A stretch of 64,000 bases of DNA. It comes from Odontocerum albicorne. Lineage: Eukaryota > Arthropoda > Insecta > Trichoptera > Odontoceridae. A program made the position numbers and the translations under genes. The stretch is taken from contig OX463842.1 of assembly GCA_949825065.1 (NCBI GenBank), positions 53,640,034-53,704,033 of the forward strand. Direction: 5' to 3'. Of the stretch, positions 2,051 to 63,084 are shown one piece after another; position 1 is the stretch's first letter, and every line of letters begins with the position of its first letter. Under the pieces are notes generated by a model, which saw nothing but the letters and a program-made list of their open reading frames with translations, was not told where the DNA came from and did not search any database.

Positions 2051-2846
2051 TGATAAATTTCGAGTGTTGACAGTATTTTTTCTTGAGCTTTTTTTTTATT
2101 TTCCATAGTACTCGTACATCTTTAAAAATTGACATAATTTTAATGAAGTAGTGACTTATTGAGAAAAAGTGCATAACAATGCTAAAACTCAAAATTAATA
2201 AATATAGTAAACCACTTCACTAAGCAACATCTGTGATGAAGGGGTCTCGTCTCATTCCTTTCTTTAAGAAATCGTAAATCTGTGATCACTACAACGATCA
2301 GCAAAAACGGCCATACTCGTACTATGCATTCACATACTCGTACTTATTCATAAATTCCTAGCTTTTACATACGAGTATGTTACACAACTTTAACGGCATC
2401 ATAGCCTCGAAAGACCACATAAAATATATGTCCAACAACATCACATCACACGCTCTCCATTCACATCATACATCACAATGTGAAAACCTCCAAAGCTCAT
2501 CGCTCTTCATTTTCTCCACTTTTTTACATATTTTATTTAAATTCCTTTCATTCATAAAACTGGTGTTTATGGGCAGGTTGTTAGTTGAAAGTTTTACATA
2601 CTCGTATTTCTTGTAAAATTGCAGAAAGAGAATCTAAACGCATTCTGTGGGGTTTTGCCCCAAGTGTTATTATTGTACGACAAAAATGATAGATTATAAC
2701 ACCACTGTTAGTTAGTATTCAATGTTAAAGCATGAATGAACTTTAAAAAATGTTTCGATAATTCAGAGTTTTACAGCTTCATTGTTAGGTGTGTATGACC
2801 TTTTTAATAACATTTTGTCATAATATTACTCTGACAGTTCACTTAT
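2051..2846. other. AT-rich intergenic, no gene
   Basis: Single-copy AT-rich sequence. It holds five copies of the 8-mer TACGAGTA/TACTCGTA, three of them within 65 bp (2314-2377). Nothing coding is supported. Confidence 0.5.
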
Positions 2847-2947
2847 ATTTGTAATCTTCCAGTGTGTGTTATTCAACTCTTGCATTGTTCGTAAAGATTT
2901 GTAATCTTCCAGTGTGTGTTATTCAACTCTTGCATTGTTCGTAAGGA
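2847..2947. repeat. 50-bp tandem duplication (2 copies)
   Basis: The unit starting TTTGTAATCTTCCAGTGTG is repeated head to tail with a 50-bp period and about one difference. No coding content. Confidence 0.9.
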
Positions 2948-5247
2948 TTTGTTTTTATTTTATACATTTTGTGTGACTTATTTTTCTAATATGTTTTAAA
3001 CACCTCACACCCCAGAGTGCTCTTCACACCCACTTCGTTATCATTAAACCGCACCACACAGTGCACCCTCTTCGTTACCATTAAAAAAAAACTGGACCTT
3101 TTTTAGCATTTTTTCACTACAATTTTATACTTTATTCTGTTCCAAGTATTTTTATTAAAATCGTTCATTTCTTTTTTTATCCACTTTGAATGAATTTCGT
3201 CTGTTACGCAAAGATGATTTGCCTTTAGTTATCTTATTTGCAAAGAAGGGTATCAGTCAAAATTATTTTTATACTGCTAGACGGTATCGAGAATATATCC
3301 ACAGTATCATTCAGTCGGTTCAATATCTCTATACCACATTTGACTGAGTGTTTAGCCATGATATTCGTTCTGTAAGTTGGTATGTAGAACAGAAGGGGAT
3401 TCTGTTCATTTAAATATTTGTATCACGTAACATTATACTGTCCGTATGTAGTCATCGAAATGATGTCTGGTTTCGTTACCCGTGAAGTCGAAGTATCATA
3501 AATTACACAGAGATAAATGGATTTATTGTTTATCAAACACCTCAACCAGATGAATTTGTTTTCTTGTAATCTACAGTTCGGCTATGTGCTCGTAAGGGAT
3601 CCGCTGGTTTACAATCAGCATCATTTCGCACTCTCGCTGGGCTGCGCCTAAATGCTGCGAAATAAACGGCATGCACTTTGTAATGCCTTATGATCATTGT
3701 TTTGTTACGTTAGTTGATATTCTTATGTTTCGCTCATTTTCAGCACTTGGCTCCTTTTAGACAGTTTTCCTAAATGGCCAACCAACTGGATAATTGAATT
3801 TTTCAACTAGCTACTCGGGGACTCCTATTTTGAATGAGCCGTATTGTTTTTTTCATCGGAAGTCTTTCGATTTTCTTTCTCAACGGACCTTAAATATGAC
3901 CCAATATTGTCCGTTATTGTCTCTATGATAAATATCCCGACGTGTAGAAATAGTGCCTTTTCTACCGCACTCAGTTCGATATTCCGTTTTGAATCAGTGA
4001 TGATCGCTGGCCTTATGGTCTTGAGAAATGTCGAGTCACTTGATCCTTTTTGTTCTGAATCGTCAGAATCGGTGAGTGGATTAGTTTTATGACCTCTGAG
4101 CATGTTTTTAATGTTCTACAATGTCAATTTTGTTTCTTATGACTTCAGTTCGGGTTATTTATAGCGTTTTCGTACGTTTGATATTTTTTCCAGCGTTAGA
4201 GATTTTTGGGGTCGCAGCTTTGTACGAATATGTGGGTATAGTACGAGTATATTATTTGGTTGAGAACTCCCTCTTTGCTCGATAATGTTTTTTTTCCTAT
4301 TTCAATGGTCTTGCTTATTTTCATACATATTTGTCTCTGACATATTTGTCTCACTAACAGCCACTATCTTATAACATAACATATACGAGTGTAGCGCACA
4401 AAGATGCTAATCACTTATTTAATGTTCTAGGCTCGAAACCTTCCTAATCAAATACTTACATTTCCTTCTCGATATCAATACGATTCCTCGATAATAGCGG
4501 AAGTTGATCGAGACATTTTAGGTATTGAATATTTTTCCATGAATATTTGACATTTTCTTCAGATTCCGTGAAATTCAATTTTTCAAAGACCACGTGACGC
4601 TAAACTTACATCCGAGGTTGAAGCTGGACTTAATTCAACTATTTTCGTGTTAATTCATTTTTTTAATTATCCTTCTTATAATATATTAATGCGACAGAAA
4701 TACTTGTTTAAAGTAAAAGAGCCGTGATTATCTCGAATGGAATTATGACATTTCTTATAAAATAAATGTTAAATCATTTTGCGAGTATCTATGAAAATCT
4801 CAGTCGAAGAGAAATTTGAGTTTCACATTAAAAATCAGTCGAGCACAAAGCAAGATAGGATATCTGCGAGGAGCGTCTAGCGTCTAGTAAAGAGCTAGCG
4901 CCTCCTTACATTATATTATTTTAAAGTATATTATATAATATAATAATACTCGTAACATCCCCTCGCTGTAGAGAATATGACTTCAGAACTGGGAGCGCTG
5001 CAGGACAGGACAGGAAACTTGACTCATTCCACTCGTAATACATTAAAATGGATGATTTTTTATTTTTCAATTCCTCATATATCATATACAGTCAACGAAG
5101 TAACGAGTATATGCCAAATAATTTACTAGTTCGGTGCCACCACGAATAATGATTCACAGAAAAAAAACCTTTTCTATTCCCGTAATACTAATTGTGTTTA
5201 ACGATTGAATTAGTTGCAACAAACTTTCTCTCTTTCTTTATTATTGT
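2948..5247. other. Intergenic, no gene recognised
   Basis: AT-rich sequence. Overlapping opposite-strand frames at 3825-4103 (minus, 92 codons) and 3844-4092 (plus, 82 codons) are the longest open stretches. Neither shows a domain I recognise, and the minus frame is only mildly protein-like. The 8-mer occurs at 4242 and 4947. Confidence 0.4.
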
Positions 5248-5537
5248 TTTTTTCCACAGAGGCTGACGATCACCATTAATAAAGAAATGGCATCACAATA
5301 ATACACGTACAGTTCCAGCAAGTTATTAAACCAAGAGTTGTCTCTTTTTCCACAGAGGCTGACGATCACCATTAATAAAGAAATGGCATCACAATAATAC
5401 ACGTACAGTTCCAGCAAGTTATTAAACCAGGAGTTGCCTCTTTTTCCACAGAGGCTGACGATCACCATTAATAAAGAAATGGCATCACAATAATACACGT
5501 ACAGTTCCAGCAAGTTATTAAACCAGGAGTTGCCTCT
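5248..5537. repeat. 96-bp minisatellite, 3 copies
   Basis: CACAGAGGCTGACGATCACC recurs at 5255, 5351 and 5447 (period 96) with near identity. The period is a multiple of three, so a minus-strand frame stays open across all copies and gives a repetitive 90-codon ORF. That ORF is a by-product of the repeat. Confidence 0.95.
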
Positions 5538-8262: not shown

Positions 8263-9324
8263 TGAGTAAAAATGAAAGAAAAAAACAGCAAAATACGAGT
8301 TTCTTTAAAACGATGATTTTAACACAATTCCTTATTTTCAATGTTCAAAAATTTAAACCTGTAATGCTGATAATGAACTCATTCGAAAAAACAACATACA
8401 GTTTGGTCAATGAGAAAGGTGGAAGTTCGGCTAATTCAAAAACTTGTTTTCGTAACTTATTAATGGACCTGGCTAATAATGTGTGTTATTTGTGCAAAAA
8501 ATTGTTTTATACACACATCGAAAGAATTGTAATATCTGAAAATGTATTTAAACGAATACGAAGAGGGAAATATAATGTTCTTTGCTTTACACCTGTTATA
8601 ATTTCAGTTTAAATTTGAATGTAAACTAATGTTTCTAGCAACCGTTTAAGTATGATATATTGTAGTATCATTGCTAAAACATCAGCAATAAATACATTTC
8701 TAAGAAGAATATTACCTGTTCTAGATTTAAGATTCAATATGACCGCAAAGTGTGCGGGAAAAAGTAATTAGGGTTTTCAAGTTTGCTATTTAAGAATTCA
8801 ACCGGAAAATTAGCCTGTCCATTGATATCTACTCGTGATCTACCTTTATAATACATACTCGTATAGTAATGCAATTATAGAATTGTACGTAAACATCCAA
8901 ATATTCAACTGCCTCAGCGCACCCTCCTTAACCGACCGAGCAGATTCGGTCTTTGGATACAAAATTACTCATTCAGTCGTTATTGAAACATCTGATACAA
9001 TATTTTAACATACTATATAGTACATTATCATTTGGGCTTAGCACAATTGATGCATACTTTTCTGCAGCATGGGGCAGCTTTCCGTTGCTTTAATTTTACC
9101 GCCACTGTAAAAAAGTGTGTTCACCTTCTGAAGCTTGAATATCTGTTATCAAACTGAAAATTGTCAAGTTTTTCCAACGTTGCTATTTTCAATAGACTTC
9201 ACGACCAACTAAGAAGTTTTTCGATTCACCAAAGATTTTTTTTAAAACGTCCACCGAAAATTATTACTTTATCCACAAAAATAAAAACATTATCGTTCAT
9301 AGTACGTTATATTACATTCAACAT
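8263..9324. other. Intergenic, no gene recognised
   Basis: An open plus-strand frame continues to 8612 but shows no reverse-transcriptase or other motif. The rest is AT-rich. The 8-mer occurs at 8856. Confidence 0.4.
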
Positions 9325-11707
9325 GACAACTGGTGTATGCTATGGGTGCTTCATCCCATATGATAACTGTTGCATGCTATGGGTACTTCATATTATATGA
9401 TAACTGTTGCATGCTATGGGTGCTTCATACCATATGATAACTGTTGCATGCTATGGGTACTTCATATTATATGACAACTGTTGCATCTTATGGGTGCTTC
9501 ATACCATATGATAACTATTGCATGCTATGGGTGCTTCATCCCATATGATAACTGTTGCATGCTATGGATGCTTCATACCATATGATAACTGTTTCATGCT
9601 ATGGGTGCTTCATACCATATGATAACTGTTGCATGCTATGGGCGCTTCATCCCATATGATAACTGTTGCATGCTATGGGTGCTTCATACCATGTGATAAC
9701 TGTTTCATGCTATGGGTGCTTCATACCATATGATAACTGTTTCATGCTATGGGTGCTTCATCCCATATGATAACTGTTGCATGCTATGGGTGCTTCATCC
9801 CATATGATAACTGTTGCATGCTATGGGTGCTTCATACCATGTGATAACTGTTTCATGCTATGGGTGCTTCATACCATATGATAACTGTTTCATGCTATGG
9901 GTGCTTCATCCCATATGATAACTGTTGCATGCTATGGGTGCTTCATCCTATATGATAACTGTTGCATGCTATGGGTGCTTCATCCCATATGATAACTGTT
10001 GCATGCTATGGGTACTTCATATTATATGATAACTGTTGCATGCTATGGGTGCTTCATCCCATATGATAACTGTTGCATGCTATGGGTGCTTCATCCTATA
10101 TGATAACTGTTGCATGCTATGGGTGCTTCATACCATATGATAACTGTTTCATGCTATGGGTGCTTCATACCATATGATAACTGTTGCATGCTATGGGTAC
10201 TTCATATTATATGACAACTGTTGCATCTTATGGGTGCTTCATACCATATGATAACTATTGCATGCTATGGGTGCTTCATCCCATATGATAACTGTTGCAT
10301 GCTATGGATGCTTCATACCATATGATAACTGTTGCATGCTATGGGTGCTTCATACCATATGATAACTGTTGCATGCTATGGATGCTTCTTACCATATGAT
10401 AACTATTGCATGCTATGGATGCTTCATACCATACGATAACTGTTGCATGCTATGGATGCTTCATACCATATGATAACTGTTGCATGCTATGGGTGCTTCA
10501 TACCATATGATAACTGTTGCATGCTATGGATGCTTCATACCATATGATAACTGTTGCATGCTATGGGTGCTTCATACCATATGATAACTGTTGCATGCTA
10601 TGGGTACTTCATATTATATGATAACTGTTGCATGCTATGGGTGCTTCATACCATATGATAACTGTTGCATGCTATGGGTACTTCATATTATATGATAACT
10701 GTTGCATGCTATGGGTGCTTCATCCCATATGATAACTGTTGCATGCTATGGGTACTTCATATTATATGATAACTGTTGCATGCTATGGGTGCTTCATCCC
10801 ATATGATAACTGTTGCATGCTATGGGTGCTTCATCCTATATGATAACTGTTGCATGCTATGGGTGCTTCATACCATATGATAACTGTTTCATGCTATGGG
10901 TGCTTCATACCATATGATAACTGTTGCATGCTATGGGCGCTTCATCCCATATGATAACTGTTGCATGCTATGGGTGCTTCATACCATGTGATAACTGTTT
11001 CATGCTATGGGTGCTTCATACCATATGATAACTGTTTCATGCTATGGGTGCTTCATCCCATATGATAACTGTTGCATGCTATGGGTGCTTCATCCCATAT
11101 GATAACTGTTGCATGCTATGGGTGCTTCATACCATGTGATAACTGTTTCATGCTATGGGTGCTTCATACCATATGATAACTGTTTCATGCTATGGGTGCT
11201 TCATCCCATATGATAACTGTTGCATGCTATGGGTGCTTCATCCTATATGATAACTGTTGCATGCTATGGGTGCTTCATACCATATGATAACTGTTTCATG
11301 CTATGGGTGCTTCATACCATATGATAACTGTTGCATGCTATGGGCGCTTCATCCCATATGATAACTGTTGCATGCTATGGGTGCTTCATACCATGTGATA
11401 ACTGTTTCATGCTATGGGTGCTTCATACCATTTGATAACTGTTGCATGCTATGGGCGCTTCATCCCATATGATAACTGTTGCATGCTATGGGTGCTTCAT
11501 ACCATGTGATAACTGTTTCATGCTATGGGTGCTTCATACCATATGATAACTGTTGCATGCTATGGGCGCTTCATACCATATGATAACTGTTGCATGCTAT
11601 GGGTGCTTCATACCATATGATAACTGTTTCATGCTATGGGTGCTTCATACCATATGATAACTGTTTCATGCTATGGGTGCTTCATCCCATATGATAACTG
11701 TTGCATG
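9325..11707. repeat. 37-bp satellite array, about 64 copies
   Basis: The head-to-tail unit contains ATAACTGTTGCATGCTATGG followed by GTGCTTCATACCATATG. The array is about 2.38 kb. Variants are shared between distant copies (CATCCCATATG, CATATTATATG, CATACCATGTG, TTTCATG, GGCGCTTC). The rare GCATCTTATGG variant recurs exactly 740 bp apart (9483 and 10223, 20 units). The GGCGCTTC variant recurs at 9640 and 10935 (1295 bp, 35 units). This shows multi-unit duplication, that is, higher-order structure. The array carries none of the 8-mer scars and has no ORF of interest. Confidence 0.97.
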
Positions 11708-13989
11708 TTATAAATTTCCTCGTTCTTGTCTTCTTTACCACTTCATATTTTATGACGCATAGAAAGGAACATTACTTTACTATATTTATCTCACAGGGCC
11801 TTCGTTCTTGTCTTCCTTACCGCTGCATATTTTTTCAAGATTTATCTTTTATTTTAATTGTTGTTAATTTTTTCAAATATTTTGTCATTTACTAAGATAA
11901 ACAATGCGTAGTTCGGATACTGATAGCAATTTTGAAACGAACTCCTAGTTGATTGAAAGAAATTGTTTCGCAGCAATTCATCAGATGAATTTTGCATAAT
12001 ATTATTACGTACGTACAAACTATTACACTATTCACCTGTTGGGGTAGGTAAAAAGGGCAGACCGCCAAATTTTGCTATCAACATACTTTCTTCATTTGCT
12101 CCATATCCATTCATCTTCTCATACAACTTCTTTGATTTCCCTTACTATTTACTCTTACTTCTGGAACAATTGTATTCACTTATCTCTTCTATATTTTGGT
12201 CGATCATCCTTTGCCATAAATTTATCTAGCCGGTCTTTTTTATACAAGTGTAAAATTGAAAAAGTCGATGGAAAATAAAGTTTGTTACAAAATCCCAAAA
12301 TTATTTTTATTGTCTCAGGAAACAAAGCTCGTATTGTACGAGTAGAACATGATGAGGAGGTCAACACTGTGGGAAGGGGAAGGGGAAGGGGAAGATAATG
12401 CTACAGAGGCCACACTCGAATAGGGGCGCGCGGGGAGGGGAGGAGAGAATAGGTTCGGAGGGGCTGCGGACTTAGCAGAGGGCTTCGTCCCTCGGAGATG
12501 CGCCATTGTATCGCTCGGAGATGCGCTATCGTATCGCTCGTTTAGCTTTGCACATACACATTTTATACAGCCAATAAAATATTTATATCTTTTTTCTCAT
12601 TTTCTTAAACTACATTCTTGCCGTTCGGTGTTCATTTTATAGTCTACAATAAATCTCAATTTCATGTTTTACGCACAAAATAAAATAGAATAGTAATAGT
12701 CGCCGCTTGCTGCTTGCTACTTGCTGCTAGTAGGATTCTGAATCGGTAAAAAATATAAAGTTTCTTCCATATTTTTTCTTGGAAACTTATTGAATTTTTA
12801 TTTTTTTTCATATATTTGCTTATGTATGAAAAAAATCAAGTAATATTTAAAGTTGTTATTTAGCAAAGTTTTGTTATTTAAAAGTAAATTGCAATTCCCA
12901 TTACGAAACAATATTTGATTTTTTCTTCACCGATTCTGTGTTTTTTTATTCGTTGAACTTTATTTCATAATAATGCAGTTTGCAAACTATCATACGAGTA
13001 CATTTATTAATTTCTATACAAGAAAGGCAAAACAATAAATTGTTACAAATGAGATACATTAATATTGATAAATTGTTGATGTACAAATATATTGTTAAAA
13101 TATTATAGTTCACTTAACCGGACAAAAATCTTTTTACAAAAAATAGTTTCATGAAACTTTCTTTACAATCTTCACAAGCTATCGAAAGTGAATAAAACAA
13201 TAAAAAGTGAGGTTTTAGTATGTCTGTGGACAATATTTACATTTTTTACAATTGTACTACATTACGAGTTATATTTACTAAAGATACGAAAAGAGACAAA
13301 AAGAGCGGATTCTCCGGTGCGAGTATATTTATAGACGTGTCCAAGTATGCCATTCGTTTCAGTTTCTTACAAAGACGAAGATGACAAAACATGCACACAT
13401 AAGTTGTGTTCTTTACATACCACAGTCACAATTATAAAACAAAAGACAAAATATTAATATCTTCTATGATAAAAACACACTGACAACTCAGGATAACATA
13501 CACACACCTTCACACCCACAACTCAGGATACGCACCTTTACATATTTCAAAATATTAAACCTTCAAATACTAATGTTAAATATAATTTATCATAATTCAA
13601 TCAACAATACTTAATTCAGTAGGAAAGGATAAAATGTCTTTCAATTGCAGCGATAATACGAAATGATAGAATTGCGGAGCAATCACAAAATATACTCGTA
13701 CTTTAGATAAAATGTAATAACCAGTCTTATCGTCATCAACCAAGATTGGGAGAAAGACGGAGTCGGAGAAGTACCGGCACGGCACGGCATGACTTGAAAA
13801 TACTCCCAAGTCTCAAAGAAATAACATCCGCTGCCTGGTTGCTTAAGTATTTGTTTCCTCGTCCGGTGATGGTGCCGGTACCGGTGGTTACTCCGTTCTC
13901 ATTGGTTCCCGAATACTATAAAAAAGGTTCACGTGTGAATCTAACTTCACGTATCAAGTTGGTTACACGGATAACTATACTACTATGCG
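11708..13989. other. Intergenic, one GC-rich patch
   Basis: AT-rich. A patch at 12360-12540 holds a GGGGAA run (12372-12392) and a 23-bp duplication (CTCGGAGATGCGC, 12491 and 12514). Short frames here (11701-12506) are low complexity. The 8-mer occurs at 12337, 12993 and 13693. The segment just before the mariner (13740-13990) is richer in GC but has no recognised gene. Confidence 0.4.
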
Positions 13990-13991
13990 TA

Positions 13992-14915
13992 TCCAGAAAG
14001 TAAGTGTACTGAGGCTCTCACGACCGGATGGATTTTATTTTCGACATGTTGGCTACACTTCCGTGTAGCTTGACCCTTCCCCTCCACAACGAGACCGGTT
14101 CGAGGTCAGTACGTTGAGAAGTGTCGACGCGACAAACGTTTCGTGAAAAATGTCAACCCAATCTTCCGCCAAGTGCGAAATTTTGTAAAAAGGCAAGAGT
14201 TTTTGAGGCGCTGCAAACTCCATGGAGATGAATTTCTCCGCTCCATCGTTACTGGAGATGAAACTTGGGTTGCACACTACACGTCTGAAACCAAAAGGCA
14301 GTCTCAACAGTGGCGTCACACCTCTTCACCCTTCGCCAAAAAGTTCAAAACCACAATTTCAGCCAAGAAAATCATGGCATCCGTGTTTTGGGACTGTCAA
14401 GGCATAATTTGAATTGAATATATGCCTCAAGGGGAGACCACCAACTCTGCAAGATACTGTGAGACCCTAAAAAATTGCGGAGGGCGATTCAGAACAAGAG
14501 GAGAGGCATGCTGACAAAGGGAGTCTGCCTGCTGCATGACAATGCCAGACCACACACGGACAACGCCACGAAGGAACTGCTCGCCTCGTTTAAATGGGAT
14601 GTCCTGAACCATCCCGCGCATTCCCCTGACCTAGCACCTTCAGATTACTATCTCTTTACCTTCCTGAAGCTATACATGGGTGGAAAAAGGTTTTCAACCG
14701 ACGAGGAGCTAAAGGAGGAGGTGGAGAAGTGGACGGAGGGGTTGGCGGGAAACTACTTCGAGGAAGGCATCAAAAAGTTGATACATCGCTTCACCACCTG
14801 CATTGAGAGGAATGGCGACTATGTCGAAAAATAGCTTACATATGTACTACGTAATTTTTTTGTTTAAATAAAAAAAATTGTAACCTACAAAAATTCAGTA
14901 CACTTACTTTCTGGA
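13992..14915 (+). mobile_element. Internally deleted mariner element with perfect TIRs and TA duplication
   Basis: Perfect 21-bp inverted repeats bound the element: 13992-14012 (starts TCCAGAAAGTAAGTG) and 14895-14915 (ends CACTTACTTTCTGGA). Each is flanked by TA (13990-13991 and 14916-14917), the classic Tc1/mariner target duplication. The total of 924 bp is shorter than the roughly 1.3 kb of full mariners. The missing part is the N-terminal DNA-binding half of the transposase. The ends could still be mobilised by an active transposase in trans. Confidence 0.93.
14104..14834 (+). pseudogene. mariner transposase remnant (DD34D catalytic domain, broken)
   Basis: The catalytic domain of a mariner transposase is readable in two frames. 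The first frame (to 14412) carries VTGDETW (first Asp codon 14257) and ends at an in-frame TGA (14410-14412). A further frameshift lies near the A run at about 14467-14473. The second frame (14475-14834) carries LLHDNARPH (second Asp codon 14538) and HSPDLAPSDYYLF (third Asp codon 14643). The spacing between the second and third Asp is 34 residues, the mariner signature DD34D. The N-terminal helix-turn-helix half is missing because of the internal deletion. It is non-functional as it stands. Confidence 0.9.
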
Positions 14916-14985
14916 TATGCCTCGTATACGCCAACAAATAATAAGAGTCGTATTGAATAGCACCAAAATAAAATACATTAAAAGA

Positions 14986-19258: not shown

Positions 19259-22196
19259 CCAATCACGGCCCTCTTAAACTTTGCGCGACTTATCTTCCAC
19301 CTACCTCCCCACTTGTCGAGTCTGAATTGGACTCATTCCTCGCAGATAATATCCCCACCATCATGGCGGGAGATCTAAATGCTAAACACCCCTTCTGGCA
19401 CAGCCGCACTTCCAACACTCACGGTAATAAACTTGACGAAATCTCCTCCCGGAAAAGATACTTCGTGGAAGGACCCACGTCTCCCACCCTCTATCCACTA
19501 ATAGACAATCATCGCCCTGATGTCATCGACATCATAGTCCATAACGACATTCTCTATCAAACAGATCTCACGACTGTTCACCAGCTTCAATCCGATCACT
19601 ACCCGGTATTACTTCAATTGACGGATGGCTTACCACCCTTCTCGCCCTCAGCCCCCCCGCGACACACCACCTCGTGGAGCGATTTCGCTATTAACGTCGA
19701 CAGCAGCATCAAAATACCGACAACCTTCCCCGACACGAACTCCATAGACGCCGCTATAAATGACTTCACAACCACCATCAAATCCGCTCTCACATCCTCT
19801 TCAAAAGAGAGACCAGCCGATAAACCCGAACTTCCCCTTCCTCCACATATCAAAATACTGATTATGGAAAAAAACAAAACCAGAAAGTTGTGGCAAAACA
19901 CAGCTGTCCCCTCTTACAAAACCGACTACAACAGATTAGTCAAAAAAATCAAACACCTCCTACAGCAACTCCGCAATGACAAATGGTCAGACTTCGTCGA
20001 GTCTCTCGAATACAATGATGGACTCAAATGGAAACTAACGCGTAGCCTTAGAAATACGCCCTCCCGACCCAACTCTCTTCAAGGACCAAATGGCCCCGTT
20101 TTCTCTGCTCGCGACCGCGCAGAGACCTTTGCTGACTCTCTAGCTAATATCTTCTCGCCAAATGCAGACCTCTCTAACCCCTCTCACTCAATAATGGTCG
20201 ACAACGCAGTTGCCGACATATTAAATGAGCAAACCCCCCCCACCACAGACTTCTTCTCACCGTTAGAAATTCAATCTATCATAAAAAATCTCATCAACAA
20301 AAAAGCCCCCGGCCCCGATAAAATCAATAATCTCACCTTGAAAAAACTTCCGAAAAAAGCCATTTACGCCCTTACCGCCATTTACAATGCCTGCCTTCGA
20401 CATAAATTCTTTCCAACCCCATTCAAAAACGCCGACGTCATCATGTTCCCTAAACCGGGTAAAAGCCACGTTATCCCTGAAAATTACAGGCCGATCAGTC
20501 TGCTCCCGACTCTAGGTAAAGTGCTCGAAAAATTAATCCTAGAACGTCTCTCGTTAGAAACTTACTCAGGTAACATCATCCCAGATTCGCAACACGGATT
20601 TAGGCCATTACACTCTACCAACCATCAGCTTCTTCGCGTTGTAGAACACATCATCAAATACTTCAGCTCCAAAGGCCTCACGACCCTCCTTTCACTAGAC
20701 GTGGCGAAAGCCTTCGACACAGTCTGGCTCAACGGACTCATATTCAAACTGCACAAGTCAGGTATTCCCCTCAGACTAGTGCAAATCATCGCATCATTCC
20801 TTGAAAATCGCTCCTTCTCCGTCAAAATAGACGGTATAAACTCATCCCCTCGCCCCATTCTGGCAGGTGTGCCCCAAGGTGCACTGTTGTCCCCTATCCT
20901 GTATAACATATACACGAGCGATATGCCCCAATTTTCACGTACACATTGTATCACCGCGCAATACGCTGACGACACAGCCTTTCTCTCTTCATCGAAATAT
21001 GAATCCGTATCCCACAACAGACTGCAAGACTTCATTCCCATTCTGGAGCACTGGTGCACCAAATGGAAGATCAAAATAAATCCCACCAAAAGCACAGCAG
21101 TCCGCTTCTCACGCAGATACATCAAACCCATCAGAACTCTTAAACTCTTCGGCCAGAGCGTCCCATGGTCAAAACACGTAAAATACCTAGGCCTCACATT
21201 AGACAGTAGACTCTCGTGGCATAAACACGCCCTCAATATCAAATCAAAAGCTCACGGAACACTCAAATCATTATTTCCCTTGATCAGTAAATACAGCAAA
21301 CTTAGCACGCGCACTAAACTCCACCTATATAAAGCGATCGTCAGACCGCAACTGACATACGCCCTTCCGGTCTGGGGCCACGCGAAGAAAACAACGCTAC
21401 ATCACATTCAGATCATTCAAAACAAAGCCCTCCGCATAATTTTAAAAGCACCCTACATCGTCCGTAATTCAAGACTCCACGCAGATACCAAACTACATAC
21501 TATCCCCGAACATATGCGCGCTCTGGCCGAAAGGTTCTACAGCTCTATATCCCGTCATCCCAACCCAGTCATAAAAGCCTTAGATAACTACAACGCGAAC
21601 ACCAGTTACAGACACACTCGTCCGAAATCAATATTGCGAAACATCCCCCCGACCCCCCCCTCTTTAACTCTAATCATCCCCCCAAATGACCCCCCGATTG
21701 TCACTCTGAACACCCCATCATCGATAATTCCTCCGGCAGACAGTTTACCCCCATAGGCAACCGCATTTCTCACCTTCAACAAACATTTTCTATACCTTAA
21801 TATATTTATAAAAGTCACACACGTTTCCCCACTCATTTACTTATCTACATATACTATATTCATTCTTATAATTTATTCACCATCATTATTTTTTTTTTTT
21901 TTTTTTTTTTTCACCCATTCAATATAAAACAGTGTGTGACGACACAAATTTATGTATATTTGTATTTAATATTATGTATATATCATCATATTTATATATG
22001 TATTTAATCGTTTATAATTTCTCATAATCATTCATAAAATCAAAACAATTACCACAAACCTATCCTTTCCCGATTCCCAAAAAGATCCAAAAATTTCCAA
22101 TAAATATCTTAACAGTCAGAACTTATCCGATGAAGGAGTAAGGTGTCCTACCATCGGACCGAAACTCCGAACAAGCTATCCATCACTTGAAAAAAA
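19259..22196 (+). mobile_element. 5'-truncated Jockey-clade LINE inserted in the minisatellite
   Basis: Minisatellite sequence stops at 19258 and LINE coding sequence begins at once, in frame, inside the endonuclease. The element ends with CACTTGAAAAAAA at 22190-22196. The 11-mer ACGTGTATATG is present just before it (19248-19258) and just after it (22197-22207), as expected for a target-site duplication. The minisatellite unit itself contains this 11-mer, so the duplication could be partly coincidental. A T run lies at 21889-21911 in the 3' UTR. There are no 8-mer scars inside, which fits a late insertion. Confidence 0.88.
19261..21756 (+). CDS. LINE ORF2: endonuclease (partial) and reverse transcriptase
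   Basis: The frame is open from the truncation point to TAG at 21754-21756. Because the 5' end is missing, no genuine start codon is present. Residues below are numbered from the TTG codon at 19327. The endonuclease remnant has GDLNAKHPFW (15-24), RPDVIDII (63-70) and SDHYPV (89-94). The reverse transcriptase has KAPGPDK (326-332), NYRPISLLP (386-394), LDVAKAFDTVW (D458), GVPQGALLSP (514-523) and YADD (546-549). A C-terminal region with KYLGLTLD and a Pro/Thr-rich tail follows. There is no RNase H. Layout and motifs fit Jockey-type ORF2 (X-element/BS-like). It would nick DNA and prime reverse transcription, but most of the endonuclease and all of ORF1 are gone. The frame is otherwise intact, so the copy is young. 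Confidence 0.93.
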   Translation, partial: NHGPLKLCATYLPPTSPLVESELDSFLADNIPTIMAGDLNAKHPFWHSRTSNTHGNKLDEISSRKRYFVEGPTSPTLYPLIDNHRPDVIDIIVHNDILYQTDLTTVHQLQSDHYPVLLQLTDGLPPFSPSAPPRHTTSWSDFAINVDSSIKIPTTFPDTNSIDAAINDFTTTIKSALTSSSKERPADKPELPLPPHIKILIMEKNKTRKLWQNTAVPSYKTDYNRLVKKIKHLLQQLRNDKWSDFVESLEYNDGLKWKLTRSLRNTPSRPNSLQGPNGPVFSARDRAETFADSLANIFSPNADLSNPSHSIMVDNAVADILNEQTPPTTDFFSPLEIQSIIKNLINKKAPGPDKINNLTLKKLPKKAIYALTAIYNACLRHKFFPTPFKNADVIMFPKPGKSHVIPENYRPISLLPTLGKVLEKLILERLSLETYSGNIIPDSQHGFRPLHSTNHQLLRVVEHIIKYFSSKGLTTLLSLDVAKAFDTVWLNGLIFKLHKSGIPLRLVQIIASFLENRSFSVKIDGINSSPRPILAGVPQGALLSPILYNIYTSDMPQFSRTHCITAQYADDTAFLSSSKYESVSHNRLQDFIPILEHWCTKWKIKINPTKSTAVRFSRRYIKPIRTLKLFGQSVPWSKHVKYLGLTLDSRLSWHKHALNIKSKAHGTLKSLFPLISKYSKLSTRTKLHLYKAIVRPQLTYALPVWGHAKKTTLHHIQIIQNKALRIILKAPYIVRNSRLHADTKLHTIPEHMRALAERFYSSISRHPNPVIKALDNYNANTSYRHTRPKSILRNIPPTPPSLTLIIPPNDPPIVTLNTPSSIIPPADSLPP

Positions 22197-22566: not shown

Positions 22567-23005
22567 GTTCACGGTCACTGTATACGTTCATAGTACAACC
22601 AAGCGGGTTTATATATTGTGCGTGTACGGGTATATGTTCGTAGTACAACCAAGCGGGTTTATATCATTGTAAGTGCACTTGTATATACTGTACCTATATG
22701 TTCATAACATAGTACAACCAAGCGGGTTTGTATCATTGTACGTGCTCGGGTATATGTTTGTAGTACAACCAAGCGGCTTTATATCATTGTACGTGCACCT
22801 GTATCATATATGTTCGTAGTACAACCAAGTGGGTTTACATCATTGTACGTGGACGTATATATGTTCGTAGTACAACCAAGCGGGTTTATATCATTGAATG
22901 TGTGTATACTGTATATGTTCATATTACAACGAAGCGGGCTTATAAAATTGTACTCGTACGTGCACATGTATATGTTCTTAGTACAACCAAGCGGGTTTAT
23001 GTCAT
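22567..23005. repeat. 51-bp minisatellite, right part
   Basis: About eight degenerate units with GTAGTACAACCAAGCGGGTT. Most copies read ATTGTACGTG (for example 22787-22796). The copy near 22951 reads ATTG-TACTCGTA-CGTG, that is, with an extra 6 bp. Confidence 0.88.
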
Positions 23006-23609: not shown

Positions 23610-25440
23610 TCGAATCCGATTGCGCTCGCGACCGCACAGGGAAAATGTGCTGTCGGCCGAGCCATCGAGACTAAGGCCAAGGTCAGTCGGGCTAAGCGGC
23701 GCCCCGCGCCATGAAAATGATTGTGTTTTGCGGGTAACGGGCGCTTGCTATGACCAATTGACCATTGATATAGAGGGGCCCCCAATTTGGAAATCACTAG
23801 CTTGATATTGGATCTTTTAGATATCACGATACTCGCTTGCGGGTATAGAGATCGGGGAAAACCCATCCAGTGTTTTCGGGTGCTGTGTGCCGCGTGGGCA
23901 TACCGCGATATTGTGCGCGCTGAGAGGCGGGCCTTTAGGGCCGACTTATGTAGTCAATCCGTGGCTATAATCAAGTGAACAGTGAGAGCGATCGAACGCT
24001 AATTGTGATCAGTGCTAGTGCCGTGAGTGCGGGTGTTGTGAGTGCGGGCGGCGCGAAAAAGACGCTAAGATGCAGGACGGGATCAGGTGCGATCTGGTGA
24101 ACGGTGTTCTTGTGCCGCGAACCCCCGTGGGGCCAGTGGCGGAAAAATGGGAGACCCCGCGGGCACCTGCCAAAAGACGGCAGGTTGCCGGACCCGAAGA
24201 GGTGGTCCAATCTAATAAGTACACGTGCCTCCGTGAGGTAACGGAAGAAGCGCCCTGCGTAGCGCGCAGGGTGTATACAAAATCGAAAGTACCGCCGGTG
24301 GTATTAACCCTCGGTAACCTAACGCACGGAAATCTTATTGGCCTGATCCGGGTGAACGTGAAGGGCCAATTTGAAGTAAAGTATACCGGGAAGGGGACCG
24401 CGAAAATCACGGTCCACTCCATTGAGGACCATGACGGCCTCGTAAAGGAACTCGATGGGAAGAAAAAAGAATTTCATACGTTCACAAAGGTGGACGATAG
24501 GACCAAAAGGTCAGTAATCCGGGGATTACCAGAAATTCCCACGGAAGAGATCGCCGGCGATCTCGCCGCGCAGGGTTTTCCAGCGCAAAAGGTCGTCAAG
24601 ATGACGACCAAGACAGGCGCGCCCATGTACTTTGCCCATTTTGGGAAGGAAACCGATATGGGGAAAATAAAGGCGACTCTGAGGTTCCTCTGCTACTGCA
24701 GAGTGACCTTCGTCAAATACCGACCCAAGAAAGGTCTCGGTACGCAATGCTTCCGGTGCCAGTCACTGGGGCACGCTTTATCGAACTGTCACCATCGAGC
24801 CCGATGCGTCAAGTGCACCGAGTTCCACCTGACAGCCGAGTGTCCCAAGACAAGGGAGACACCGGCCACTTGCGCAAATTGCGATGGTAACCACCCCGCA
24901 AACTACTCGAAGTGCCCTACAAGGCAAGCTTACGCGGAATCAATCGCCCGCCGGATGGCACCGCGTGTGATACCGGGTCGCTCATGGAGCGGCGTCGTGA
25001 CGGGTGCGGGGAATACGCTTCCCACACAAAGTAATCAGGCCGCCGCGCGGAACGCCCGCGCTTCGCGGTCTATCGCTGGCGCAAATACTCACGAAACTGC
25101 GCAGAGCGCGAATATGCAACACGCGAGCGCGCAGCGCGAAAACTTCGCTCATCCAAGGGATCCGAGGAACGGCAGCCGACCACCGTTGCTGCCGACTCCC
25201 GAACCCTTCATCACCAAAACGAGCTTCGCAGGCGGAGAGGGATCAGAGATGACCCGTATCATCCGCCTACTCATGAAAATGAGGACGAGGCTGGACCAAT
25301 GCAAGGATAGAATCGAGAAGGCGTTTCTCATCGTCGATATGTTGGAGGAACTCAAAGACTAAAACTGTATTTATATTTTCTCCTTTTATATATTCTCTTA
25401 TAAATTAAAAAAAAAAAAAAAAATTTTTTCATATATATTC
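23610..25440 (+). mobile_element. LINE 5' part: GC-rich leader plus ORF1, no ORF2
   Basis: A GC-rich leader (about 23610-24069), unlike the AT-rich surroundings, precedes an intact ORF1. After the ORF1 stop there is a short AT-rich tail and a run of 17 A (25407-25423). No endonuclease or RT frame follows. Either the element was cut off after ORF1, or it is an ORF1-only element, or its ORF2 was lost by recombination. Exact ends and target duplications were not found. Confidence 0.65.
24070..25362 (+). CDS. LINE ORF1: gag-like nucleic-acid-binding protein
   Basis: 430 residues from ATG (24070) to TAA with no disruption. Residues 148-220 resemble the RRM-like PRE_C2HC region of Jockey-clade ORF1 proteins (IRGLPEIPTEEI, then YFAHF, then CRVTFVKYRPKK). 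Three zinc knuckles follow: C227-C230-H235-C240 (canonical CX2CX4HX4C), C246-C249-H253-C258 and C268-C271-H275-C282. An A/R/S-rich linker (about 285-380) leads to a charged C-terminal helix (about 393-430, possible coiled coil). The role is to package LINE RNA and chaperone nucleic acid during retrotransposition. There is no partner ORF2 within reach, and the RT at 19259-22196 is a separate insertion. An open 1.3-kb frame in a region of decayed elements implies recent insertion or selection. Confidence 0.85.
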   Translation: MQDGIRCDLVNGVLVPRTPVGPVAEKWETPRAPAKRRQVAGPEEVVQSNKYTCLREVTEEAPCVARRVYTKSKVPPVVLTLGNLTHGNLIGLIRVNVKGQFEVKYTGKGTAKITVHSIEDHDGLVKELDGKKKEFHTFTKVDDRTKRSVIRGLPEIPTEEIAGDLAAQGFPAQKVVKMTTKTGAPMYFAHFGKETDMGKIKATLRFLCYCRVTFVKYRPKKGLGTQCFRCQSLGHALSNCHHRARCVKCTEFHLTAECPKTRETPATCANCDGNHPANYSKCPTRQAYAESIARRMAPRVIPGRSWSGVVTGAGNTLPTQSNQAAARNARASRSIAGANTHETAQSANMQHASAQRENFAHPRDPRNGSRPPLLPTPEPFITKTSFAGGEGSEMTRIIRLLMKMRTRLDQCKDRIEKAFLIVDMLEELKD

Positions 25441-38977: not shown

Positions 38978-39705
38978 ATTAAGATCTGATTCTGGATACC
39001 CTCTGGATACCCGTACAAGTTCCGAGGAGAGTACCTCCCATACACGTAACATTATTAAGATCTGATTCTGGATACCCGTACAAGTTCCGAGGAGAGTACC
39101 TCCCATACACGTAACATTATTAAGATCTGATTCTGGATACCCGTACAAGTTCCGAGGAGAGTACCTCCCATACACGTAACATTATTAAGATCTGATTCTG
39201 GATACCCGTACAAGTTCCGAGGAGAGTACCTCCCATACACGTAACATTATTAAGATCTGATTCTGGATACCCGTACAAGTTCCGAGGAGAGTACCTCCCA
39301 TACACGTAACATTATTAAGATCTGATTCTGGATACCCGTACAAGTTCCGATGAGAGTACCTCCCATACACGTAACATTATTAAGATCTGATTCTGGATGC
39401 CCGTACAAGTTCCGAGGAGAGTACCTCCCATACACGTAACATTATTAAGATCTGATTCTGGATACTCGTACAAGTTCCGAGGAGAGTACCTCCCATACAC
39501 GTAACATTATTAAGATCTGATTCTGGATACCCGTACAAGTTCCGAGGAGAGTACCTCCCATACACGTAACATTATTAAGATCTGATTCTGGATACCCGTA
39601 CAAGTTCTGAGGAGAGTACCTCCCATACACGTAACATTATTAAGATCTGATTCTGGATACCCGTACAAGTTCCGAGGAGAGTACCTCCCATACACGTAAC
39701 ATTAC
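38978..39705. repeat. 65-bp minisatellite, about 11 copies
   Basis: Highly homogeneous unit with ATTATTAAGATCTGATTCTG then GATACCCGTACAAGTTCCGA. The first copy carries an extra TCTGGATACCC. One copy (39464) has TACTCGTA in place of TACCCGTA, a single substitution and not an insertion. Minus-strand 61-codon frames overlap one another here only because of the repeat. Confidence 0.97.
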
Positions 39706-44784: not shown

Positions 44785-44880
44785 TGCTACTTTACTCGTA
44801 CATTGTCTGTTATAGGGAATGCTGCTTAGCTTGTACATTGTATGTTATAAGGAATGCTGCTTTACATTGTCTGTTATGGA
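44785..44880. repeat. Three degenerate direct repeats differing at a TA site
   Basis: The repeat AATGCTGCTTTACATTGTCT appears three times. Copy 1 has TACTCGTA (44793-44800), copy 2 has TAGCTTGTA (44827-44835) and copy 3 has plain TA (44863-44864) at the same place. This is a direct filled/empty comparison for the dispersed 8-mer. Confidence 0.88.
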
Positions 44881-46288
44881 TAGATATATGCCATGATGGA
44901 TATGAGGGACATAATTAAATTATCTTATCGTGTAGCTCATGATTGAGCATCGTGGCTCATCTTGTCGTGTAGCTCATGATTGAGCATTGTGGCTCCAACG
45001 ATAGCCTTTGACGACTGCTGTTCATCCATATCTGCAATCCGCAGTTCAAAAATCAGTTTTTAAGGGTAGTCCTGTTATGTTTCTCACTTGGTCAGTGCAA
45101 CGTGTTGAGGCTCTTCCTATTGCGCGACATCCTGGCGCGACATCCAGTGACCTCCTTGGCCACGAACAATGTTTACAAATAATCGGAGGAACACCTCCGA
45201 TTACAACAGTATTGGACGTATTATTGACAATTTGTCCGTGACTCGTTCTTCAAAAATGTGGACATTAGATCCTAACGGATAAGTCACACAAAAAATCACA
45301 AGATATCGATCCAAAAGTACTCATTTACAATACCTAATAAATGTTTTCTGGTGTTAACAGGCTAGATGTATATTCTGGCAGAATTATCTTAGAATATTTT
45401 TAAAGAAATCCCCACAGCGAGATGAAAATGATCCGTTTCCGGACAACGAGAAATCTCTCGCAGCATTGCTAAGCAAGCGGCTGTCTCAGTCGTAATATAC
45501 TCGTAGTATTATGTAACTCACTTTGTAAAGTTAGCGTAACGAAACGGCGAATTCGTTCACTCCAGCGGCCTGATTCGGGCCCGAGCACACATCCCTCGGA
45601 GAGGGGTGAAGTACGGACGGATGAACGGAAAAGAACTTTGATTGAAAGATGGTCGGATTAGAGACCCCCTATTCCGATTCAAGGGCTGAGGTAAGCGGGG
45701 CGGGGGGAAGTTGACAGCCCATAAAAAGGGCCTCGCCGCGGGGTGGAGGGTAACCGCGACACATTTCCCGATCATGTCCGGAGATACCGATGTCAGCCCC
45801 GACATAACATATACTCCTTAAAATCTATTTATTTTGTTTATATCGTTTCTGTTTCACAATATTCGGCGGCGGCGGCGGCGGTGTTAATGTTAATGTTTAG
45901 GTTCGGTGTTCAACATCGTTTTCTTCTACATTTTTTTTATTTGAGTTGCTTTATAAGGTATTCATTTTAACAAAATATAAGATTTGTTCTAAACGGGTTT
46001 ATTTTAGTGAAATTTTCGAATATTGATGTTTTTAAAACAATTAAATAATATCAGATGAAGTATGATAGTTAACAATTTATCTCGCAGCGTGAAATTAGTG
46101 TTATGCAGTTAACTCGATCTACAGCTTCGATTTCGTCTCCCCTGTTTTAATACCTTACAATGGCCTTATTATACATTTAGAAGAAAGTCAGCAATGTTTT
46201 GTTAAAACAATATGACATGTTAATATGCGCGAGGATGTTTTCCACCTAACTTTAACACGAAACGTCTCAGATCAGATGCATACATAGC
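44881..46288. other. Intergenic with GC-rich patch
   Basis: GC-rich at 45540-45800, with a GGCGGC run at 45864-45881. The frame 45008-45241 (77 codons) has no recognised domain. The 8-mer occurs at 45498. Confidence 0.4.
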
Positions 46289-46470
46289 TCCTTGTACTAC
46301 TGAATTGATCAGGTATCAGCTACTCGTACTGCTCAATTGATCAGACGTCAGCTACTCGTACTACTCAATTGATCAGACGTCAGCTACTCGTACTATTCAA
46401 TTGATCAGACGTCAGCTACTCGTACTACTCAATTGATCAGACGTCAGTTACTCGTACTGTTCAATTGATT
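46289..46470. repeat. 32-bp minisatellite carrying the 8-mer
   Basis: The unit has TACTCGTACTACTCAATTGA then TCAGACGTCAGC, about five copies from 46321, with a diverged first copy (CCTTGTACTACTGAATTG). Each good copy contains TACTCGTA, so this array amplified an existing 8-mer site. Confidence 0.93.
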
Positions 46471-51892: not shown

Positions 51893-52172
51893 TACTCATA
51901 TATTGAAATGATATTTATTGTGTATTGAAATGATATTTGTTGTGTATTGAAATGATATTTATTGTGTATTGAAATGATATTTGTTGTGTATTGAAATGAT
52001 ATTTATTGTGTATTGAAATGATATTTGTTGTGTATTGAAATGATATTTGTTGTGTATTGAAATGATATTTATTGTGTATTGAAATGATATTTGTTGTGTA
52101 TTGAAATGATATTTATTGTGTATTGAAATGATATTTGTTGTGTATTGAAATGATATTTATTGTGTATTGAAA
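51893..52172. repeat. 22-bp minisatellite, about 12-13 copies, mostly in 44-bp dimers
   Basis: Unit TGTGTATTGAAATGATATTT plus AT or GT. The AT and GT forms mostly alternate, so a dimer has been amplified. Confidence 0.95.
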
Positions 52173-57342: not shown

Positions 57343-57435
57343 AAGGTACAGAACTAGTCAAATTGTATATTTTATAATAAATTAGGTACATAACATTAGG
57401 TACAGAACTAGTCATGTTATATACGAGTATTTTAT
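57343..57435. repeat. Direct duplication with one 8-mer-containing copy
   Basis: GGTACAGAACTAGTCA occurs at about 57343 and 57398. Both are followed by TATTTTATAATAAAT, but copy 2 has TACGAGTA (57422-57429) where copy 1 has TA (57368-57369). Removing six bases makes the two segments the same length. Confidence 0.85.
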
Positions 57436-57604: not shown

Positions 57605-57660
57605 GTAGTTTCGGAGTCTCCTGGTCATGATCGTAGTTTCGGAGTCTCCTGGTCATGATC
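57605..57660. repeat. 28-bp tandem duplication (2 copies)
   Basis: GTAGTTTCGGAGTCTCCTGG plus TCATGATC, twice, identical. Confidence 0.95.
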
Positions 57661-59395: not shown

Positions 59396-59962
59396 GAACA
59401 AGTGGAGTTGATATAAATCGGATCTCCAGCAAGTACGAGTATGTAATTGGTTGTGTATGGAATTATTTGATTTAAAACATCTTTTTTCGCAAAATCCGCC
59501 GACGATAAAAGGTTGGCGATTGCAAAAATTTATGTGGTGGGAGTACACATGTTATGCGAGTACATCTCATGAGCTTGGATTGATTGTACGGGTGCCTACT
59601 GCTATCCTATATCTAATTCTTGCTAATTTTCTAATTACACCTAATCAAAAGACAGTTACTAGATTATGCCAGTTGACCTATCGTGTAATTGGTTAATTAT
59701 TCAGTTAAAGGTTTCTGTCATGTTGTTTAATAGCTGGTCTCACAAGAAAGAGCTGGAAAAGACGTACAAATATTATGCAGATAAAAACATTTCCTAAGCC
59801 TGTGTTTCAGTTCGGGGACTACGGGTTCGATTACCATTAGAATTCAATTTTAAAAAGGAATCATATTTGATTTCCACTAAAGGCTTCTAAAATGTATAAC
59901 CTCGTAGTAATAAGTAATTTAGGTTGTGCTGTATACAATCAAAGCCTAATGCAATACAATCA
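59396..59962. other. Intergenic, no gene recognised
   Basis: GGGTTCGATTACC at 59823-59835 resembles a Pol III B box and matches the reverse complement of 43261-43273. This may be a SINE remnant. The 8-mer occurs at 59434. Confidence 0.35.
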
Positions 59963-60090
59963 TCTATATAAATAAAAATGTAAATGTTTGTTAGTAGAAA
60001 ATCTCTAATCTCCGAATTTTTTTCATCGATTGCTTTGAAATTTGGACAAAAGCATTTTGCATTCGTATACAAGCACGTTTATATATTTTT
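59963..60090 (+). mobile_element. Helitron-like 5' end 1
   Basis: TCTATATAAATAAAAATGTA, preceded by A, is the common 5' start of insect Helitrons (insertion between A and T). The usual downstream block ATCGATTGCTTTGAAATTTGG follows in recognisable form. No Rep/helicase coding and no 3' CTRR hairpin end were identified. Confidence 0.55.
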
Positions 60091-60263
60091 TTTATATACG
60101 GTTGTATACAAAATATTATATAAAACAGACGAAATAACGGGAGCGCCCCCTGCAGCGACACACGCAAACTAAACAATTCTCTTTGACAGTTATATCACAT
60201 TGCATTTTCGACGTTTCGGAATTAATATTAAATATTGAATAATTAAATAATAAATATTAAATA

Positions 60264-60320
60264 TCTATATAAATAAAAATCTCCGAAATTTCTTCACGGA
60301 TTGCTTTGAAATTTTGTCAG
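60264..60320 (+). mobile_element. Helitron-like 5' end 2
   Basis: TCTATATAAATAAAAATCTC followed by CCGAAATTTCTTCACGGATT and GCTTTGAAATTTTG. Same family as the ends at 59963 and 63328, preceded by (AAATATT)-type sequence. Confidence 0.5.
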
Positions 60321-60767
60321 TTTAATTTTGATTTTATATATTAAATAATAAATATTAAATTTTTAAATATTAAAAAATTAAATATTAAATAATAAATATT
60401 AAAAAGTATATAAAACAGACGATATAAAAGGAGCGCTCTCTGTTGAACATAACGGCAACCTAGCTTTACTAAATATTTTATGCGTCATTTCGTCAAGTGT
60501 GCGTTGTTGACATCTAGCTCTAAAGAATAGTTGTTTCACTTGGTTTTTAGTGCAATTAGCGGTGAAATTGGATTGTGTTGATTGATTTTCATTTGAATTC
60601 AAACCCTGTGCCTCAAATTCATTTGAATTCATACCATTTCACGGCCATGTGCCTCAGCGAGACGGCGTGATGTTGATATGTATTTTTCTGTATGTTACGA
60701 ATGCGGATCCCTAGCCAATGCAACTAACGTAAACTTTTCACAATGTACTATATTTTTATGTTTTATA

Positions 60768-63084
60768 TCGTCGTTGTTAAGGAAAAAGTCATTTATTACC
60801 ATTTTTGATCAAAATGAGATTTTTCATTATTTGAATGAAAAACACAAATCTCTATACTCTAAAAGTCAAAAACGGCATTATTTAAGCCAATAGCGAAGTT
60901 AGGCCACTAAAAAATCATTAACTGTAAAAATTGATTGTTTGTTTGTATGGAAAAAGTGATTATATTACTTGATGAGTTCTTCCTTACTAATGATACGCAT
61001 GAAGTTGCAATTAATGAATTGTGTGAGATAGACGTTGCCAGTGTGTTTGTCATGCAATTCACTTAACAAGTGGTTTTGTTAAGTTTTGGCGATTTTATTT
61101 AACTTTATTTTTAGAAAAAGACAGTGTAGGATTGGCAAGCATTGAAATTTTAACAAATTTATGTTCATTTTAACATAAATTATATGTTTTTTTAAATTAT
61201 GCATTGAACATAATCTCAAAATATAATGACATTATTTTTTGACAAGAAACTGTCACTCAATATTAATTAAGCATTGTTAGCCAAAGAAAGTGAACATGAA
61301 TATTTTAATGACACGATCGGCGATCCGGATTACATGCCCGATCCAACGAATGTGGAATCCATAAACGAATCAACATTAAAACAAAATGTTGTAGGGGAGA
61401 ATATTGTTAACACTGATCCTGCACAAGAACATCAAAATGAGACATGCAGTTCATCTAGAGTCGCTGACATTCCAGTCTGTCTGAGGACATCTCAATTGAA
61501 CGTGATTTAAGGTGGAAGAGGGGTGTGGGTAACCCTTCTATGTGGAAAAAAATGTACCAAAGAAAAGACGAAGTGAATGCCTTCCTCACGAAACAAAAAA
61601 TGATTAAAACCTGCAAAGTTAACAAAATAAGTGAATTGTGAATTCTGTCGTTTTAAATATTATAATAATTTACCCGAAAATGATAGAGTTTCGATTTGCA
61701 AATCGTATTGGCCATTGAATAATTATAATCGTCAAAAAGAATTTATTTTCGCAAATGTACAATCAATCCGTCAAGCCAAACAATTCAATTCAAATAAAGC
61801 AAGATCGATTTCATATACTTATTTTTTGACTACTGACGGAATTAAGCATCGAGTGTGTCGGAAGTTTCTCGAGAAAACGCTTTCTATAAGTATTGGCCCC
61901 GTGAACAAAGCTTTTGAATTCACTACCGCTGAGGGGGTTTTTTTTTTCAGGAAAAGACAACCGTGGAAACAAACAGTGGTCCGGGAAATAAACATTCTGA
62001 GATAATTTTGCGGCGATTCGAGGAACACATTGAATGTTTTCCCAGGATGGAATCGCACTACGAGTACGTACGAAAATCAAGTAATAAGCTATATCTTCAC
62101 AAAAATTTGTCTATTTTGAAAATATACGATTTATATAAGGAATTTTCCGAGAAAAATAATTCAAAACGCGTTTCTCAATCAACTTACAGAAAGAATTTCG
62201 GCGACAATTATAATTATTCCTTTTTAAACCTAAAAAAGAGTTATGTTCTGTCTGCATCAAATATAAAACAACTAGTGATAAAAATGAGGAAACCGTTCAA
62301 ATGTACCACAACCATTTACGTCGGAGAAATTAATCGAATGCAGCATTTATGAGGAAGGCGAAAAAGTCAATTGGTTAAAGATAAAATGTCTGAAATATGA
62401 AAATGTGAATCCAAAACAAATTTCATACAAATATGAGCATAACGGCGCATATAAAAAAATAGTTATAACCGGCCGAGGAAGACCACGTAACACAGCAGCT
62501 GATACGGGTAACACTCTTCTTGTCAAATTGTATGACAAAATGTTGCCAATCGCAAATGCAAAACAGAAGGATTTGTTAAAATAGTGTTCTTCAGGAGTGG
62601 TGCCGGAAGAATACCCCAGCTGGTACTCGTACGCATCTCTACCAGCTGATGATAAAGAAACTATTATTGATTAGTGATTCATCCAGCTTCCAGCTTCCAG
62701 ATTGTGGCGATACTTATCATATTATTTTACATAATACTATTTCCGTTTATAAACTTGTTCAATTTTATGCTTAGTTTTACTGTGCAGAACCCTCAAAACC
62801 TCTCAAGAAAAATTTAAATTAACTGTGTAAAAAATCATTAAGTGATCTTTCTCACATATTTGATCTGTGAGGAAAAAAATCATTAAGTGTTAAAACTTCT
62901 TTTCCTACATCTTTCCAGAATCTAAACAGTTTTTTTCTACACATAAACATGTAGGCCAATACAATAAATCAAACAAGGTAAATATTTTCAATGAAACCAA
63001 TATTTTGGATTTTACAGAGAAAAAAATCGTTTTTCTCAATAAAGTCGAAAATGCAATTAATGACTTTTTCCTTAACAACGACGA
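60768..63084 (+). mobile_element. DNA transposon with 25-bp perfect inverted repeats
   Basis: 60768-60792 (TCGTCGTTGTTAAGGAAAAA plus GTCAT) is exactly inverted at 63060-63084. Looser similarity continues inward for about 35 bp. The decayed gene at 61274-62674 lies between them. No obvious target-site duplication flanks the arms, so the true ends may lie further out. CAACTAACGTAAACTTTT occurs in direct orientation near both sides (60721 and about 63157). Confidence 0.6.
61274..62674 (+). pseudogene. Broken transposon-associated protein gene (insect VCRKxFLxTL family)
   Basis: The blocks run in order with stops and shifts between them. An acidic N-terminus holds DPDYMPD (61274-61510). Then NPSMWKKMYQRK; then NCEFCRFKYYNNLPENDRVSICKSYW and YNRQKEFI (61631 on); then HRVCRKFLEKTLSISIGPVNKAF (to 62005). 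FPRMESHYEYVRKSSNKLYL and ILKIYDLYKEF follow (61963-62352). Finally VNWLKIKCLKYE, GRGRP, LPIANAKQKDLLK-stop and GVVPEEYPSWYSYASLP (to TAG at 62672-62674). I recognise the pattern from uncharacterised, transposon-linked insect proteins, possibly Sola-type, but cannot name it securely. The usual middle portion is missing. Two 8-mers (62059, 62624) add two residues each. Confidence 0.6.

Follow-up and report, generated by a model that had tools for sequence, protein, structure and literature searches.

The window, by which we mean the whole 64-kb stretch of DNA analysed, contained both a Mutator-like transposase ORF and a reverse-transcriptase ORF, and no tRNA or Rfam match was obtained in it. Judged by the appearance of its elements, the host is probably an animal of the arthropods, perhaps an insect. 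The regions 19327-21756 and 24070-25362 comprised the LINE reverse-transcriptase ORF and a second long ORF, and both regions were free of the 8-mer described below. Zinc-knuckle-like Cys/His motifs were recognized by eye in the second long ORF, for which no Pfam match was obtained. The LINE ORF had 2436 protein relatives, the best of which showed 45% identity among the matches listed, and had no match in the viral contigs or genome contigs searched. A satellite-like array with a 37-bp unit (approximately 65 units) occupied 9323-11711, and many other minisatellites were present. The array mask consisted of 37 tandem intervals (10,097 bp, approximately 16% of the window), which were a hand-picked part of the rows of the tandem-repeat table.

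Abundance and distribution of the 8-mer

An exact string search for TACGAGTA and its reverse complement, TACTCGTA, gave the following sites.

Plus strand, TACGAGTA, 36 copies starting at 2370, 4242, 5601, 6849, 12337, 12993, 17030, 17276, 18909, 18963, 26921, 27546, 28120, 28389, 30430, 30520, 31301, 32966, 34017, 34756, 35260, 37621, 38225, 43050, 43304, 49090, 55526, 56820, 57422, 57719, 58097, 58300, 58964, 59088, 59434, 62059
Minus strand, TACTCGTA, 36 copies starting at 2109, 2314, 2335, 2599, 4947, 8856, 13693, 15722, 16625, 17204, 18176, 22951, 30599, 31767, 32072, 37610, 39463, 40035, 40793, 41073, 41716, 41866, 43397, 44793, 45498, 46321, 46353, 46385, 46417, 46449, 50504, 54496, 57815, 58934, 59251, 62624

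These 72 copies, 36 in each orientation, span 2109-62631 with a spacing of approximately one per 850 bases, in agreement with the sequence-only reading, which had claimed about 70 enriched copies occurring in both orientations. An order-3 Markov model trained on the sequence including the 8-mer copies themselves predicted 3.2 copies, corresponding to an approximately 23-fold excess. When the arrays were masked and the model was trained after collapsing the sites to TA, 64 copies were counted outside the arrays against 1.36 expected (47-fold). These two comparisons rule out a chance origin of the excess. Tandem repeats were also rejected as its cause, as they explain only 8 of the 72 copies. 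Outside the arrays, 64 of the 480 TA-N4-TA words were the 8-mer, with the runner-up word reaching 26, and 1.4% of the TA sites (64 of approximately 4,500) carried it. Five of the eight copies inside arrays represent one amplified site, the copy at 39463 is a point mutant, and the remaining two lie at 22951 and 44793. Since the five copies at 46321-46449 count as one site and 39463 is a point variant, the window holds about 67 independent copies.

No clustering of the sites was shown, because 10 intervals of at most 100 bp were observed and 7.2 were expected by chance (P = 0.15), and local hopping was rejected accordingly. The largest site-free gap (7958 bp) was unusual (P = 0.018) and covered both LINE regions. 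Nested scars, which would appear as 14-mers made of two overlapping sites, were absent for the three forms tested. The copy at 62059 lay inside the ORF 61933-62352, where it would insert two codons (SHY-EY-VR), and a protein database search with this ORF gave three candidates, none of them significant. Among other words outside the arrays, the palindromic TACGTA (15 sites against 8.9 expected) and TACATA (81 against 57) showed a mild excess and may or may not represent scars of lesser length.

Sister repeats, target site and decay

Each 8-mer was collapsed to TA and then aligned to the other copies of the same repeat within the window. Seven of the 72 copies had a sister, and these came from five loci (22951, 57422, 44793, 39463, and the array 46286-46469). 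With the array set aside, the four independent loci gave two clean gains, one ambiguous case, and one point mutant. These loci and a decayed site are listed below.

22951..22958, minus strand, footprint with clean empty sisters (6-bp gain from TA to TACTCGTA), within an approximately 51-bp repeat at 22708-23005
57422..57429, plus strand, footprint whose sister at 57344-57382 is cleanly empty (sister alignment, 92% identity)
44793..44800, minus strand, copy of ambiguous polarity in a three-unit 35-bp repeat, the third unit of which is without the 6 bp
51893..51900, plus strand, decayed footprint TACTCATA with one substitution (CpG to CpA), recognized by sister alignment
39463..39470, minus strand, TACTCGTA arising by a point change within a 65-bp array, judged from the sister units and left out of the footprint count
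46286..46469, minus strand, 32-bp tandem array in which one footprint was amplified to five intact copies (starts 46321-46449)

At 22951, the best empty alignment scored 97.6 bits and the best same-length alignment 82.2 bits, and at 57422 the empty alignment scored 52.8 bits while no same-length alignment was obtained. The decayed site at 51893 showed a 6-bp gain relative to the adjoining 22-bp units (empty alignment, 106 bits and 89% identity). In the repeat at 44793, the second unit has six different bases (AGCTTG) at the place of the 8-mer, and the same-length alignment scored 55.9 bits and the empty one 43.6 bits. In the 65-bp array at 39463, 9 of the 11 units read TACCCGTA and one reads TGCCCGTA. 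The array at 46286-46469, the first unit of which is changed to CTCCTTGTA, is uninformative on the gain because the site is present in all its units. As a control, 105 of 516 other TA-N4-TA sites had a sister, and three of them favoured a sister shorter by 6 bp; two of the three had only 70% identity, and the third was 51893 itself. The proposal of the sequence-only reading that the 8-mer arises from a plain TA by gaining 6 bp consequently held at 22951, 57422, and the decayed 51893, was ambiguous at 44793, and failed at 39463, where the 8-mer arose by substitution.

Outside the arrays, the collapsed sites showed a symmetric preference around the TA, with A at -3, R at -1, Y at +1, and T at +3. 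The arrangement R-TA-Y was found at 44 of 64 collapsed sites compared with 1323 of 4442 TAs (p = 2e-10), bearing out the expected flanks of A/G before and T/C after, and A-N-R-TA-Y-N-T was found at 13 of 64 compared with 189 of 4442 (p = 3e-6). A palindromic target around TA is a known habit of Tc1-type elements.

The one-substitution neighbours of the 8-mer numbered 64 against 35.6 expected (ratio 1.80), and among 900 control words, for which the mean ratio was 1.02 (sd 0.22), only 0.9% reached this value. These neighbour counts correspond to a decay of approximately 5.5% per site. R...Y flanks were observed in 25 of 61 neighbours (counted after removal of all sites inside arrays or up to 8 bp from them), in 125 of 386 background TA-N4-TA words, and in 44 of 64 scars. 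Judged by this flank preference, approximately 14 of the 61 neighbours would be true derivatives, a number that was calculated by hand and is not significantly above zero, and the decay would be approximately 3% per site. Decayed copies appear to be few, and the mean decay, which is weakly determined, is roughly 3-5% per site. The strongest neighbour was TACGGGTA, with 6 copies against 0.8 expected outside the arrays (22625, 36366, 58179, 62503, 43377, and 16450); since only one of the six had R...Y flanks, it is probably no derivative of the scar. The CpG observed/expected ratio of the window was 1.09. A flat density predicted 4.4 and 4.6 sites in the LINE regions and 1.7 in the Mutator-like ORF region, and none was found in any of the three. 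This would be the pattern of young insertions, yet these regions are also GC-richer.

Probable excision and the possible source of the scars

We consider it very probable that the 8-mers are excision footprints (TA + 4 nt + TA) of an IS630-Tc1-mariner element. This interpretation, put forward in the sequence-only reading, gains support from the 6-bp gains, the Tc1/mariner-like target, the equal orientations, and the ends and footprint length of Minos. We take the kind of event to be well supported, and put forward the source family and a genome-wide scale as proposals.

A scar reading TA-CGAG-TA would call for a source that ends in CGAG and is cut with a 4-nt stagger. In the mechanism that we propose, an IS630-Tc1-mariner transposon with the termini CGAG...CTCG, or its non-autonomous copies, would insert at TA and duplicate it. 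The transposase would later excise the element by cleaving the non-transferred strand 4 nt inside, so that each flank would be left with a 4-nt 3' overhang, CGAG. Two such overhangs could pair solely at the outer C-G and G-C, with two central mismatches remaining, and after joining, the heteroduplex would be resolved toward one strand to form TACGAGTA or TACTCGTA about equally. Because independent mismatch repair would also yield TACGCGTA and TACTAGTA, which were found at one site each outside the arrays against 64 pure sites, the central pair seems to be resolved together. The approximately 65 scars per 64 kb would be derived from several rounds of mobilisation by elements that are now gone from the window. 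Within this scheme, the chemistry at the overhangs and the element responsible are inferred.

The most likely source is probably a Minos-type element of the Tc1 branch, and most of the rest of the probability belongs to a CGAG-ended mariner, represented by the relic described below, or to another unseen family. No Minos-type element (approximately 1.8 kb with inverted repeats of approximately 254 bp) was found in the window. An end-pair search of the window, which required inverted repeats with at least 17 matches in 24 and misses ends with at least two changes, covered 164 left and 212 right candidates for CGAG ends, none of which paired through matching long inverted repeats. The 27 TACGAG without a following TA in the window showed no common extension by eye. 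Fifty-nine viral contigs matched the Minos 14-mer, and these matches were taken for chance. What is unusual is the scar density together with the lack of a Minos-type source in the window.

One rival source is present in the window.

13981..14926, plus strand, internally deleted mariner relic of 946 bp with 32-nt inverted repeats (left TA-CTATGCGTATCCAG..., right TA-CGAGGCATATCCAG...)

The right end of the relic reads TA-CGAGGC and the left end TA-CTATGC, and the inverted repeats are 91% identical over 32 nt. As ends with at least two changes escape the end-pair search, the relic was missed by it. The statement of the sequence-only reading that no full-length element with CGAG termini is visible was nearly right, but it overlooked this relic with its one TA-CGAGG end. 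The C-terminal piece of the relic protein matched Mos1 and SETMAR (E about 1e-21), and 34 residues were counted by hand between the last two catalytic aspartates (DD34D) across a frame broken between two pieces. The relic repeat had no match in the viral contigs or genome contigs searched, and the relic protein had none in the viral contigs searched. A mariner family ending in TA-CGAGG, with this relic as a member, could have produced the scars if its transposase left 4 nt instead of 3, and besides the relic no CGAG-ended element was found in the window. However, its left end reads CTAT, its family is a single copy in 64 kb, and TACGATA/TATCGTA, the 3-nt scar expected of mariner, was at background (7 against 6.3). 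To our knowledge, the mariners characterised to date leave 3 nt, which would give TACGATA/TATCGTA here. Because a mariner would be expected to leave this shorter scar, which is not enriched, we favour the Minos-type source and regard the mariner origin as unlikely.

The family may have been purged genome-wide by a transposase that excised well and reinserted poorly, perhaps being domesticated or host-controlled, leaving approximately one scar per kilobase; or each generation may strip it again from its somatic DNA, in which case the DNA sequenced would be somatic. Each of these would explain many scars with no elements left, and we consider them together quite improbable. The decayed site at 51893 and the amplified array at 46286-46469 indicate that some scars at least are inherited, which argues against a process confined to the soma.

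A functional dyad site (TAC-GA-GTA) that selection maintains for binding by a host protein would agree with a near-palindrome at high density and with the small number of decayed copies. Such a site is nevertheless very improbable, given the 6 bp gained at TA between sister copies, flanks of the kind preferred by a transposon that targets a central TA, and the finding of no site against 10.7 expected from flat density in approximately 9 kb of the two LINE and Mutator-like ORF regions, which are GC-richer. Under the excision reading, the dyad symmetry would follow from both element ends being CGAG. A self-spreading 6-bp micro-insertion or a sequencing or assembly artefact, although compatible with a source element not being seen in the window, is hardly credible, since one scar was amplified with the 32-bp array and another decayed by substitution (51893), as inherited DNA would be, and we know of no mechanism for a self-moving 6 bp.

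Scars of cut-and-paste transposons are usually studied singly, in assays. We found no literature on genome-wide excision footprints, which does not prove absence from print, and among the matches listed for the string TACGAGTA, no title concerned excision scars. If the density in the window holds genome-wide, past excisions would be directly countable and datable, the ratio of excision to retention would be measurable, and the repair outcome (the winning strand and the frequency of mixed products) would be readable in natural data. One would then also have to ask why scars are many and elements few. A scar in an exon would add two codons and keep the frame, making it a possible source of coding variation.

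Comparison with known transposons

In the IS630-Tc1-mariner class, TA is duplicated and the scar consists of TA + 2-4 nt + TA; such a structure was observed at 22951, 57422, and the decayed 51893, and the palindromic, TA-centred preference of the class was also found at the scar sites of the window. A footprint span of 2-4 bp for Tc1/mariner is given in a passage of one report (PMC7913693). Sleeping Beauty and Frog Prince likewise leave end-joining scars at TA that bear terminal nucleotides of the transposon. PMC3878927 gives the length of these scars as 3 nt, C(A/T)G plus TA, whereas TACAGTA/TACTGTA was at background outside the arrays (8 against 8.0 expected). With the DD34D mariners (Mos1 and Hsmar1/SETMAR), the relic shares the C-terminal domain, the DD34D spacing, and one CGAGG end, and the TA target is also common to them; the 3-nt scar expected of these mariners was, in contrast, not enriched in the window.

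The closest likeness is to Minos of Drosophila hydei, a member of the Tc1 branch. The inverted-repeat primer Minos/IR reads TACGAGCCCCAACCACTATTAATTC and is also quoted as TACGAGCCCC in a passage of PMC3680223, which places the ends of the element at TA-CGAGCCCC; the TA|CGAG of these ends gives the letters of the scar. An excerpt of another report gives a footprint length of 6 bp (PMC10992017), which as TA + 4 nt matches the gain in the window, and the size of approximately 1.8 kb and the inverted repeats of approximately 254 bp used above are taken from part of a third (PMC2874221). Nothing of Minos itself was found in the window, neither a DD34E transposase of the Minos group nor its long inverted repeats nor any other part of its sequence. 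The density of scars is, as far as we know, far above anything known for Minos. The TA target is common to Minos and the scars of the window, and Arca et al. in 1997 reportedly described a Minos scar with the same letters as the 8-mer; here these letters were deduced from the terminal sequence of Minos and its footprint length of 6 bp.
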